This document shows, one piece after another, positions 44,408-47,768 of a DNA stretch of 47,904 nt. This DNA comes from Rhodothermales bacterium. Lineage in GTDB: Bacteria; Bacteroidota; Rhodothermia; Rhodothermales; JANQRZ01. Numbering within the stretch: the stretch's first letter is position 1; each line of letters begins with the position of its first letter. The stretch is from NCBI GenBank assembly GCA_039944855.1, contig JBDUXZ010000025.1:1-47904 (forward strand), read 5' to 3'. Both the position numbers and the translations under genes were made by a program. The notes under the pieces were generated by a model. That model had not been told where the DNA came from, did no database searches, and was given only the letters and a program-made list of their open reading frames with translations.

Positions 44408-44740
44408 TTACGCGGAGCCAGCCGAGGGGTGTTTGTGGCCGCAGTTCCAGCAGACGGCGAAGAGCCCGTCCACCTCCTCGCCACAACTCGGGCACGTCCA
44501 CGGCTCGGCCGACTCGCCCGTGTCGCCCTCGATCACCTCGCTCACGACCTCGACCGCTTCGCCGAGTCGCTCCTCATCCACGACCCACAACTCGCTCCAC
44601 GCGTCCGTCGCGCCCGCGGCCCCGCCGACGACGGTGGCGAGGTGCTCGTTCTTGATGGTGGATTCGATGCCCCGTTGTTCGAGCTCGTTCTTGACGAGCT
44701 GGACCATCGCGGGGTTGAAATGGCTGTAGACTCGATGCAT
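44408..44740 (-). CDS. DUF2007-type protein with C-terminal zinc ribbon
   Basis: A 110-residue cytoplasmic protein. The first about 70 residues match the DUF2007 layout: HRVYSHFNPAMVQLVKNELE, then RGIESTIKNEH and ELWVVDEERLGEA; that fold resembles PII-like regulators. The C-terminus has CPSCG (C83, C86) and CWNCG (C97, C100), a zinc ribbon. The role is unknown; the family is described as a putative signal-transducing domain. It belongs to the group of short minus-strand genes between 44.4 and 46.5 kb. Confidence 0.75.
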   Translation of the reverse strand: MHRVYSHFNPAMVQLVKNELEQRGIESTIKNEHLATVVGGAAGATDAWSELWVVDEERLGEAVEVVSEVIEGDTGESAEPWTCPSCGEEVDGLFAVCWNCGHKHPSAGSA

Positions 44741-44848
44741 CGTGCGGGGGGTTGGGTGGACGGATGCAGGAGAAGCACTACAGGATACGCACAGCAGTCG
44801 ACACGGAACGGCGGGTTCCGATCCCGGCGAGGGATAGGCGTCGGCGAG

Positions 44849-45199
44849 TCATCCAGCGGGACGGGCGGAGCGGAACAGGGAGGCCAGCCCCATGACCGCG
44901 AGCATGGCGACGGCGTTGATAGCTCCGACGAGCACGGCGGAGGCGAAGAAGAAGCCGCCGTCGCCGCTGGCCGTCTCACCGCCGAGGAGATGGTAGGCCG
45001 TGTGGACGGTTTCCGCGAGCAGGCTCCCCCCGAGCGCCCCGCCGACTACAGCCAGCAGGCGAGCGCGGAGCGGGGCGTTGCGCGTGATCCAAAGCGCGAG
45101 CCCGATTGCGGCCGCCGAAACCGCCATGACGGCGGAGCTGCCGAGGATCGCGAGCGCGAGCAGCACGCCTACGCCGAGATACGAGACGAGGTGTTGCAA
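44849..45199 (-). CDS. Small membrane protein with about four helices
   Basis: A 116-residue protein, no family recognised. Helices at about 5-24 (VSYLGVGVLLALAILGSSAV), 25-40, 48-70 (RARLLAVVGGALGGSLLAET) and 85-110 (FFASAVLVGAINAVAMLAVM). Between helices 3 and 4 is a polar loop with HTAYHLLGGETASGDGG. Its 5' flank carries the about 31-bp element also found in front of the gene at 45813 (45235-45266). Confidence 0.6.
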   Translation of the reverse strand: MQHLVSYLGVGVLLALAILGSSAVMAVSAAAIGLALWITRNAPLRARLLAVVGGALGGSLLAETVHTAYHLLGGETASGDGGFFFASAVLVGAINAVAMLAVMGLASLFRSARPAG

Positions 45200-45234
45200 T
45201 GGGTAGGTGGGGACGATGCCCTCGGGTGTTTTCC

Positions 45235-45266
45235 TGAGCCGCAGAACGGAGTGGCGCTTCAGCCGC
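45235..45266 (-). repeat. Spacer element B, shared with element A at 45813
   Basis: On the plus strand it starts TGAGCCGCAGAACGGAGTGG and ends CAGCCGCC. It aligns with element A (45813-45843) over about 31 positions, roughly 26 identical, with few gaps. Both lie just upstream of a minus-strand gene start and next to hairpin-forming sequence. Confidence 0.5.
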
Positions 45267-45381
45267 CACGGGCAGCGTCAGCGGTGGAGTGGGCAGTGTA
45301 GACGTTAGCGGCGAGACAGGCGAAGCCGCCGAGCCCGTGGTCGGCCTGCGAGCGCGGGTTCTGCGCCGGGAGGGCACGTGG

Positions 45382-45813
45382 TTACTCGTCGCGGACCGTC
45401 ACCGCCAAGGGGAGTGTCATCGGGTAGCGGATCGCCCGGCCCCGGTCGTGAGCAGGGATGAACTCGGTCCCGCGGACAAGCTCACGCGCTCGCTTGGCGT
45501 GCCGAGCGGACGGACTGCACAGGACTCCGATGTCGGTCGCGTGGCCGAGCGTATCCACGTCGAACCGGACGACGGTCAGGGTCTCAACTGCGTCGCCTAC
45601 GGTGGAGCCGAGGTTCACGGCCGTACGGCGAAAGGCTTCACTCTCCGTGGTGGGCTGGTACTCCGGGACGTAGACGAGGAGGTCTGGATCGGGCTCGAAG
45701 TGCTCCCGCCAGTCGCCTTGGCACTGGGCGATCTCCTGCGCCTGAGAGGGAGGAGCGAAGGCGACCACGCACGCTGAGATCGCGAAGAGCAGGATCCGCT
45801 TAGATCGCATCAT
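45382..45813 (-). CDS. Exported protein with TonB C-terminal-like domain
   Basis: 143 residues. Signal peptide about 1-26 (ILLFAISACVVAFAPPSQAQ). The remaining part has the TonB C-terminal pattern (LTVVRFDVDTLGHATDIGVL, then HAKRARELVRGTEFIPAHDRG and YPMTLPLAV). There is no N-terminal anchor and no proline-rich spanner, so it is not an ordinary TonB; it may be a periplasmic domain of an energy-transducer-like or binding protein. Adjacent ATGs at 45813 and 45810 are equivalent. Element A begins at the start codon itself. Confidence 0.6.
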   Translation of the reverse strand: MMRSKRILLFAISACVVAFAPPSQAQEIAQCQGDWREHFEPDPDLLVYVPEYQPTTESEAFRRTAVNLGSTVGDAVETLTVVRFDVDTLGHATDIGVLCSPSARHAKRARELVRGTEFIPAHDRGRAIRYPMTLPLAVTVRDE

Positions 45814-45843
45814 GAGGCGCAGAACAGATGGCCGCTCAACCGC
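45813..45843 (-). repeat. Spacer element A with hairpin
   Basis: On the plus strand it starts TGAGGCGCAGAACAGATGG and ends CTCAACCGCG. It aligns with element B at 45235. It is followed on the plus strand by CGAAGGGC (45843-45850), which pairs perfectly with GCCCTTCG at 45916-45923. Confidence 0.5.
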
Positions 45844-45938
45844 GAAGGGCTGATGGCACGAGTACGGAACGAGGTGAGAGTAGCGCCGACGTTTGGACGA
45901 GCCGACAACGCTGACGCCCTTCGTCGGCTTGCAGCGGC

Positions 45939-46559
45939 GGGTTAGCTGGCCCGAGCTATTTGGTGGAGTCCGGAGGTGGAGCGCCGAGTGAGTCGGCACG
46001 TTCCACCACGATTTGCGCCTCTCTGACAACTTCGGCTTGGGGTTTGCCATACGCCCCCCTCACGGCCTGCTCCGCAATCTTTTCGACCTCGGCTCGGGAA
46101 AGGGAGTCTTTCCCAATCTCTGCAAGCTTGACACCTGCATCCACCAAGTTAAAGAGCAGCGTCACAATGATTGCGATAACCGCATAGAGTTCGGTTCGGT
46201 TGGCTGGCAACCAGTCCGCCAGCTTCGACAGCTCTGGGACTTCCTTCCGAATCTCCTTCTTAACCTCCTCAGGGGTTGCGTTCCGCTGGCGTGCGCTTCC
46301 GAGGATCTGTGCAAGCCGGCGAAGTTGATCTGTCGTTCGTTGAGGAGCGGCAAGGATCTCCATCGTTTCGCCGACGAAGTTGAATACACCGTCTGGCACG
46401 CTCCCCATGCCTCCGCACACCGGGCAAGGTCCAGATTTGTTGCCGGACAGAGTGACGTTGACGGAGTTGTCGATTACGAAGCCGGAGCCGAACACGGCAC
46501 CGCAGTTATCGCAGAAGGCGGGCAGTTCAGGCATTGAGGTGGGGCAGGCCAGCTAACCC
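45939..46559. repeat. 13-bp perfect inverted repeat flanking one gene
   Basis: GGGTTAGCTGGCC (45939-45951) and GGCCAGCTAACCC (46547-46559) are perfect complements. The zinc-ribbon gene 45956-46534 fits exactly between them. A one-gene unit bounded by complementary GTTAGCT/AGCTAAC cores is what an integron cassette or a small mobile element would show; see findings. Confidence 0.6.
45956..46534 (-). CDS. Zinc-ribbon protein with one membrane helix, atypical composition
   Basis: 192 residues. Two CxxC pairs (C8-x2-C11 and C37-x2-C40) give a zinc ribbon. A membrane helix follows at about 116-132 (LYAVIAIIVTLLFNLVD). A charged helical region (RRLAQILGSARQRNATPEEV, then KKEIRKEVPELSKLADW) precedes it, and a helical C-terminal part (ESLSRAEVEKIAEQAVR-like) follows. 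No known family. A hand count over 46081-46200 gives about 51% G+C, well below the neighbours. The composition and the flanking inverted repeat suggest acquisition. Confidence 0.65.
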   Translation of the reverse strand: MPELPAFCDNCGAVFGSGFVIDNSVNVTLSGNKSGPCPVCGGMGSVPDGVFNFVGETMEILAAPQRTTDQLRRLAQILGSARQRNATPEEVKKEIRKEVPELSKLADWLPANRTELYAVIAIIVTLLFNLVDAGVKLAEIGKDSLSRAEVEKIAEQAVRGAYGKPQAEVVREAQIVVERADSLGAPPPDSTK

Positions 46560-46691
46560 CTACTTAGGTGCCCCGTGGGCGTGATACAACGCGTCCAGCG
46601 GCGGCATAAGCAACACGGGGGAGGAATGAAGGACGGTGGCTGGGTTCTGGCAAATCAAGCGCACAGGCCGGAAACCGTTCGCCTTTAGTCC

Positions 46692-46699
46692 GCAAGATA
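46692..46699 (-). promoter_or_regulatory. TATCTTGC -7-like element upstream of the zinc-ribbon gene
   Basis: The minus strand reads TATCTTGC from 46699 to 46692, about 160 nt before the ATG at 46534. The spacer 46560-46757 contains no gene, so this could drive the run of short genes behind it. It may equally belong to nothing. Confidence 0.3.
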
Positions 46700-46757
46700 A
46701 GCGCCGTCCTCTAAAGTGCGAATGTGCGCAAAGCGCCTACCTGTCACCGCCCAACGC

Positions 46758-47705
46758 CTACGGCCGCGTGCCCGCCAACTGCGCCCGCAGCCGGTCGAAC
46801 TGCTCCTGCTGCGGGGTGCCGGCGGGCACGTCGTAGGGCGAGGCGGGGAGGCGGACGCGCTTCACCACCGGGTACTCCTCGCGGTAGAGGAACGGGCTCG
46901 GCGTGCCGACGATGTCGTGCCCGATCACGAGCACGATCGTGCCCTGCTCGTGGATGGTCGCGCCGACGGACGAGATCGCGTCGCCCCCCGTCTTCTCCCA
47001 CGTGTCGGTCCACGCGTAGAGCCAGCGGGCGTCGGGGTCGGACATGCGGATGCAGCCGTGCGAGGCGGGGCCGCCCATCGGGAGGGCGTACTGGTGGAGG
47101 TGGATGCCGCGTGCCTCGTGGATGTTCATCACCCAGTACATCTCCCACAGCTCGTCGTTCGACGGGTTGTTATAGCCGGGGCTCAGCGTCGAGACGCGAT
47201 AGTCCTGCTTCCAGTTGACGTTGAAGCGCCCGCTCGGCGTCCTCGCGCTCTCCGTTCCGGTGTTGATCATGCCCCAGCGGGCGAGCTTACCCCACTCGTA
47301 GGCCGCGTAGCCCTGGATGCTCTTGTCGAGCACGACGAGCTTGTCGATCTCGCGGGCGCCGGGGTAGTAGCGCGGGAACGGGGAGTAGGCCCGGAAATCC
47401 AGCGTGAGGTCGGTCGGGACGACGAGGGTGTCGCCGGGGCGGAGGTTCTCGAGGTCGTTCCGGTTGAGGATCTGGAGGAGGCCCTTGTTCTCCTCCCCGT
47501 ACATCCGGTAGAGCTTCAGCCTCGCCTCCAGCCGGGAGTCGCTCTCGACGACGTGGTAGTCGTAGTAAACGGCGGGGATATCGTCGAGGTCGCCGTCGCG
47601 GCGCTCGATGACGTCGGCGATGTTCTTCTGGCGGAAGTGGGAGGTCTCCTGCGCCCAGGCCGGCAGGGCGAGGAGGAGGCAGAGGAGGGGGAGAGCGAGG
47701 CGCAT
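46758..47705 (-). CDS. L,D-transpeptidase (YkuD/ErfK family), exported
   Basis: 315 residues. Signal peptide 1-18 (LALPLLCLLLALPAWAQ). A LysM-like segment is at about 80-98 (ILNRNDLENLRPGDTLVVP). The YkuD catalytic domain runs from about 120, with IHLHQYALPMG and the catalytic SHGCIR motif (H216, C218). It forms or anchors 3-3 peptidoglycan cross-links or attaches proteins to peptidoglycan in the periplasm. It is a stand-alone gene; the tandem 8-bp repeat lies 63 nt before its start. The ATG at 47705 begins the signal peptide. Confidence 0.9.
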   Translation of the reverse strand: MRLALPLLCLLLALPAWAQETSHFRQKNIADVIERRDGDLDDIPAVYYDYHVVESDSRLEARLKLYRMYGEENKGLLQILNRNDLENLRPGDTLVVPTDLTLDFRAYSPFPRYYPGAREIDKLVVLDKSIQGYAAYEWGKLARWGMINTGTESARTPSGRFNVNWKQDYRVSTLSPGYNNPSNDELWEMYWVMNIHEARGIHLHQYALPMGGPASHGCIRMSDPDARWLYAWTDTWEKTGGDAISSVGATIHEQGTIVLVIGHDIVGTPSPFLYREEYPVVKRVRLPASPYDVPAGTPQQEQFDRLRAQLAGTRP

Positions 47706-47768
47706 CGGGAACGGAGCAGATTCGGTGGAATGGGCCGGTATACTCACGTGGAGGGCGTTGGGTCCGAT

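Follow-up and report, generated by a model that had tools for sequence, protein, structure and literature searches.

An integron cassette array headed by an attI-like site in a Rhodothermales bacterium whose single integron integrase gene lies on another contig

We analysed a stretch of 47,904 nucleotides, here called the window, that makes up an entire contig (JBDUXZ010000025.1, C25) of a Rhodothermales bacterium (GCA_039944855.1; G000; 4.6 Mb in 41 contigs). Close to one of its ends, several short minus-strand genes lie downstream of a conserved L,D-transpeptidase gene, and an earlier note, made from the letters alone, had described four of them as a possible vestigial gene-cassette array without an integrase. 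The locus is an integron array, composed of an attI-like docking site and a short row of cassettes, and the genome has at least seven places of this kind, this one included. Cassette ends, attC sites and an attI-like head are shown by the sequence, with an intact integrase gene at a remote position and none locally. The coordinates of all features are given in Table 1.

The zinc-ribbon gene of the first cassette is bracketed by a perfect 13-bp inverted repeat (GGGTTAGCTGGCC, 45939-45951, and GGCCAGCTAACCC, 46547-46559), which on the minus strand places GTTAGCTGGCC ahead of the gene and GGCCAGCTAAC behind it. The earlier note had seen this repeat, and it indeed marks both ends of one gene cassette: in a circular cassette the 5' end, in general of the TTRRRY type, and the R'' make up a single site and are therefore expected to pair, and in cassettes 1 and 2 of the window the 5' end is complementary to the own R'' at every position compared (Table 1), which makes the repeat a cassette signature. 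In a GC-rich region such a repeat could by itself be due to chance. The observations go beyond chance because: i) the intergenic sequence behind the zinc-ribbon gene recurs at 1.4 kb from an integrase gene on contig C5 (E 7e-7) and also on C22 (E 1e-6); ii) the two attC sites score 103 and 114 bits with a covariance model, the third-best match within the window being 15.6 bits; and iii) no permutation reached the complementarity observed. For the latter comparison positions 4-12 of 14 cassettes in the own genome were used, and the own pairs were complementary at 103 of the 126 positions, against a mean of 57 and a maximum of 85 in 100,000 permutations of the pairs. Per cassette, own pairs averaged 7.36 out of 9 and neighbouring pairs as laid out 3.75 out of 9. 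The junction in an excised circle is predicted to be attC1 joined to TTAGCTGGCC.

The covariance model was built from 13 attC sites (~133 bp) on C5, C22 and C25; the two sites of the window were in this training set and their scores are therefore not independent, whereas the matches in other genomes are. The alignment contained the elements R'' (..AAC), L'' (GCCGAC), L' (GCGGCTGAA) and R' (GTT..), and the RNAalifold consensus has 14 pairs, 8 of which show compensatory changes. Both sites of the window have the order R''-L''-L'-R' and the stem structure, and in their single-strand folds the R, L and central stems appear as expected; the pairing arms that had been pointed out before (CGAAGGGC and GCCCTTCG) belong to the stem of attC1. 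For attC1 the single-fold z-scores were weak (-0.55 and -0.94), and for attC2 a value of -2.66 was reached. Throughout the own genome the model recovered some 28 sites in at least 12 places. It also matched in 11 of 16 relatives, and the arrays directly adjoin integrase genes in G002, G012, G013, G032, G046 and G053. The Rfam scan of the window gave nothing at gathering score, with SCARNA23 (E 0.6) as the sole weak and chance match in the array region; an exact-pattern search of the genome for the start of the attC returned this copy alone, the family members differing by more than 3 bases, and a plain regular expression written for the attC 3' half had no match.

The consensus GTTRRRY, which is not an invariant feature, is followed by the R' cores only in part (GTTAGCT 6/7, GTTCTGC 5/7), with the invariant GTT/AAC kept. 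The earlier note had listed this partial fit as a reservation; it is real, and it is explained by the habit of the lineage, in which many cassettes use GTTCTGC/GCAGAAC and keep just GTT/AAC and the self-complementarity. Other cassettes of the own genome (GTTGGGC, GTTAGGC, GTTAGAC) fit the consensus fully.

A single gene of the genome exceeded the TIGR02249 cut-off for integron integrases of 265 bits, namely C5:74605-75585 with 425.6 bits. The encoded protein (343 aa) can be aligned from end to end with IntI4 (PDB 2A3V, E 5.8e-79, the best solved match) and has the conserved catalytic motifs together with the integron-specific segment of the IntI family. Of the two attC sites in the array linked to it one is degraded, and an attC there belongs to the same family as those of the window (119 bits). 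The profile search of the genome gave no integrase match on C25, and the locus is not a complete integron. The cassette array without a local integrase that had been proposed is supported by the attC sites and cassette ends, and the grounds that had been named for giving up the idea, no attC match and a unique repeat, did not materialise: there are matches to the model and the family recurs in the genome. As a statement on the system, 'vestigial' was not supported, with an intact integrase on C5 and intact ends on cassettes 1 and 2.

The earlier outline of the array had overlooked the attI-like site that heads it. The array begins at ~46640, with this site directly ahead of cassette 1, and the stretch 46554-46640 aligns with the regions that precede the first cassette in two divergent arrays on C22 and at C5:322371, C37:93417 and C20:396580, as well as with the integrase-adjacent site C5:75777. 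The conserved CCTAA-N6-GTTA core, including the GTT, matches that of attI1 (CCTAAAACAAAGTTAGGC, present in 2,430 E. coli genomes), and relatives of the site lie beside intI in the own genome and in those of two other genera (G012, which is complete, and G053). Cleavage would take place between G46557 and T46556. A model of the attI-like sites was made from nine sites, including the intI-adjacent ones of G012 and G053, where its scores hold by construction; its matches outside these nine are independent. With this model seven attI-like sites were found in the own genome, each followed by an attC, for one integrase gene. The site on C20 is without the GTT core, the site C5b has lost one base of the core, and there is an eighth possible core on C40. 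Several attC loci had no recognisable attI-like head, and an unfiltered rescan found none apart from the possible weak core on C40. The solo sites on C22 (twice) and C5b are ~84% identical over the ~225 bp that lead up to the core, a stretch that carries the direct repeat GTTGCTTATGCGGCC at either end; the copy in the window shares 63-83 bp with those modules at 68-85%, together with GGCGCTTATCTTG. In the window and at C5b, the stop codon of a housekeeping gene closely precedes the module.

Table 1. Features of the cassette array and its borders in the window, in the direction of the array
Feature	Position	Strand	Details
L,D-transpeptidase (YkuD) gene	46758..47747	-	Pfam PF03734; conserved, just upstream; boundary, outside the array
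Putative cassette promoter	46693..46730	-	predicted; GGCGCTTATCTTG (46693-46705), kept in four attI-like modules
attI-like site	46554..46640	-	core CCTAA (46564-46568)-N6-GTTA (46554-46557); A2/A3 alignments; attI-like model 64.6 bits
Gene cassette 1 (732 bp)	45825..46556	-	5' GTTAGCTGGCC (46557-46547) against complement GGCCAGCTAAC (45951-45941), 11/11
Cassette 1 gene	45956..46534	-	192 aa; two CxxC pairs (zinc-ribbon-like); predicted hydrophobic segment
attC1 (cassette 1)	45815..45953	-	R'' AGCTAAC 45947-45941, R' GTTCTGC 45825-45819; attC model 103.2 bits
Gene cassette 2 (578 bp)	45247..45824	-	5' GTTCTGCGCC (45825-45816) against complement GGCGCAGAAC (45367-45358), 10/10 from the first base
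Cassette 2 gene	45382..45813	-	143 aa; signal peptide; TonB_C-like segment (under cut-off)
attC2 (cassette 2)	45237..45370	-	R'' GCAGAAC 45364-45358, R' GTTCTGC 45247-45241; attC model 114.1 bits
Third cassette	44849..45246	-	start GTTCTGCGGC (45247-45238); 3' end decayed
Third-cassette open reading frame	44849-45199	-	116-aa membrane protein; TTG start
Possible remnant of third attC	44771..44827	-	AACCCGCCG; attC model 12.2 bits, not above chance in the window; rightly placed, tentative
DUF2007 and zinc-ribbon gene	44408..44740	-	PF09413

By their sequence, cassettes 1 and 2 are intact and the third has lost its attC; an R'' complementary to the start of the third cassette was not found. Of the four cassettes proposed before, two are thus complete, the third is a recognisable start only, and the DUF2007 gene has not proved to be a cassette: the scan with the attC model found no attC behind it. 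The zinc-ribbon gene had been called foreign in composition, which agrees with its GC content of 58.0% against 68.9 ± 3.3% for stretches of equal size in the window (3 of 474 as low). Its protein had no Pfam family above the cut-off, two weak matches (28%) in two other genomes were all that was found of this cassette elsewhere in the order, with no attC of the same family adjoining, and PADLOC gave no match that would make the cassette genes defence genes. The L,D-transpeptidase has orthologues in 23 of the 24 genomes searched (own included); the genes that follow it differ in G001, G002 and G013, which prevented the definition of a clean empty site.

Ahead of the attI-like core, the putative promoter of the window follows the motif TTG-N18-21-TAnn(T)TTG, with the upstream hexamer reading TTC. 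This motif resembles the promoter of Bacteroidota. The own genome contains it 13 times, over 11 stretches: nine occurrences are within integron arrays and oriented along the cassettes (eight in attC loops and one in an attI-like module) and each of the other four is ahead of an open reading frame. In many attC sites (e.g. L018:16214, L035:15028 and L144:13454) a promoter-like motif was seen in the central loop, pointing to the next cassette. The loop is also conserved among relatives, but their attC sites mostly do not match the strict motif, and a promoter function of the motif is therefore a guess.

In the wider order, the complete genome G012 combines a single integrase gene with five attI-like sites, four of them matched beyond the intI-linked one, and there are further matches in G009 (Roseithermus sacchariphilus, CP030158.1; three) and G002 (two). 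Exact own-end matches of 10-12 bases follow the attI-like sites at G012 2594902, G009 1781911 and 1762242, and G002 C52b, and attC sites lie behind G012 589675 and 1412727; no attC was seen immediately behind G012 1409304, nor in the 2.4 kb that follow G009 1775590. A pattern scan for the attI palindrome over all genomes returned nine stretches, two of them in R. sacchariphilus.

Various observations were made along the way. The ~225-bp modules L035:14215-14440, L020:4076-4300 and L020:7395-7629 look copied as a unit, and pairs of attI-like sites in the same orientation, possibly tandem copies, occur at G002:C52:19939-21257 (L143; 1.3 kb) and at G012:C1:1409304 and 1412727 (L132; 3.4 kb). In R. 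sacchariphilus (L138, L139) both integrase copies look damaged (a frameshift; the C-terminal part gone), with attI-headed arrays remaining. On C40 (L081:2064-2130) a long perfect hairpin, GGGTCGGCATAACAT..ATGTTATGCCGACCC, directly precedes the possible attI core CCTAATTAATGGTTA. Between the two divergent attI-headed arrays of C22 there is a gene for a tyrosine recombinase (L020:4806-5921, minus strand), which at 53 bits against the cut-off of 265 was rejected as integron integrase. A pair of open reading frames in the C5b array (L035:15700-16200, C5), located before a degraded attC, presumably resembles a DUF433/DUF5615 toxin-antitoxin pair.

We consider it probable, at roughly 60%, that the array is served in trans by the remote integrase. 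Circular cassettes would have entered the attI-like site, beside a probable promoter, by attI x attC recombination; two of them would have stayed complete and the third decayed at its distal end. The integrase of C5 would insert and excise cassettes in trans here and at no fewer than five other attI-like sites, and we infer that it recognises the site in the window, that recombination continues and that the promoter works. According to PMC12444791, a functional IntI can act in trans to mobilise clusters that lack an integrase. Several points weigh against this reading: no strain comparison shows gain or loss of cassettes at the array, the genomes compared being those of other genera; the array is short and ends in a decayed cassette; and the integrase-linked attI is ~60-75% identical to the other attI-like sites, which are closer mutually (the window copy 68-85%, three others ~84%), and has a CTAA-GTT spacing that is one base shorter, so that the preference of the enzyme may differ.

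Beyond service in trans, we tentatively suggest, with somewhat less than even confidence, a distributed integron, in which one integrase would act on many ~225-bp attI-promoter modules that were copied around the chromosome behind housekeeping genes and, with the promoter-like motif in the attC loops, would make cassettes expressible at many places; the layout itself recurs in several Rhodothermales genera.

The main rival, which we hold to be unlikely, is that the array once had its own integrase gene next to attI, has since lost it and is now static. Loss of intI is a proposed origin of such clusters (PMC8618304), and the decayed distal attC, the attI-headed arrays that persist in R. sacchariphilus beside damaged integrase copies, and the closer similarity of the other attI-like sites to one another than to the integrase-linked one would all agree with a relic. 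However, no fragment of an integrase was found near any solo site and none on C25, the modules of C25 and C5b start so close behind the housekeeping stop codon that a former gene would not fit in between, the genome retains an intact integrase, and the own ends of cassettes 1 and 2 are perfectly complementary. Insertion at an arbitrary secondary site of the attG type, the head then being no attI, is disfavoured and appears highly improbable: such insertions are described (Loot et al. 2024, as cited in PMC12444791), off-target insertion is among the listed origins of integrase-less clusters (PMC8618304) and several other attC loci of the genome are without recognisable attI-like head, but the head of the window aligns over 60-85 bp with other array heads and intI-adjacent sites in three genera, where an attG would share few bases. 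That chance or another repeat family (transcription terminators, or hairpins like repetitive extragenic palindromes) could mimic an integron, GC-rich DNA folding easily and the single-fold z-scores being weak, is refuted by the covariation of the attC sites, the own-end complementarity and the matches to the model beside integrases in other genera.

With its two attC sites and cassettes and no integrase gene nearby, the array is a CALIN (cluster of attC sites lacking integron integrase; Cury et al. 2016, IntegronFinder, PMC9024848), a class defined without attI, whereas in the window an attI-like site and a probable promoter stand at the head of the array; IntegronFinder detects attI for class 1 only (PMC9024848). 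Integrase-less clusters are thus known already, as is one published attI-headed case, in the Shewanella prophage M16-3 (PMC9892861), the attI of which likewise reads CTAA-N6-GTT; there it concerns one extra site, in a prophage, and here seven dispersed attI-like sites that recur in other genera of the order. The sedentary chromosomal integrons (Vibrio cholerae, IntIA) are alike in integrase family, R''/L''/L'/R' structure, homogeneous lineage-specific attC family and cassette ends, but have one attI and one long array next to the integrase, whereas here the integrase-linked array holds about two cassettes and most cassettes are elsewhere. The attI1 of class 1 has the CCTAA-N6-GTTA core with a spacing identical to that in the window and differs in its flanks, where the site described here has the palindrome GGGCGCGTTACAACACGCCC as well as a direct repeat at some distance. 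In the literature searched, most subscription journals being outside its scope, no case was found of one integrase with seven attI-like heads, repeated across genera.

In the usual description an integron consists of a single integrase beside one attI and its array, and integrase-less clusters count as decayed leftovers. Here many integrase-less arrays of one genome keep an attI-like head, as they do in two complete relatives, which supplies an attI sequence family for a phylum with few described attI sites. If the single integrase works in trans, CALINs that were filed as dead could be live docking sites, and the integron platforms per genome would be undercounted, because the tools ignore attI outside class 1.
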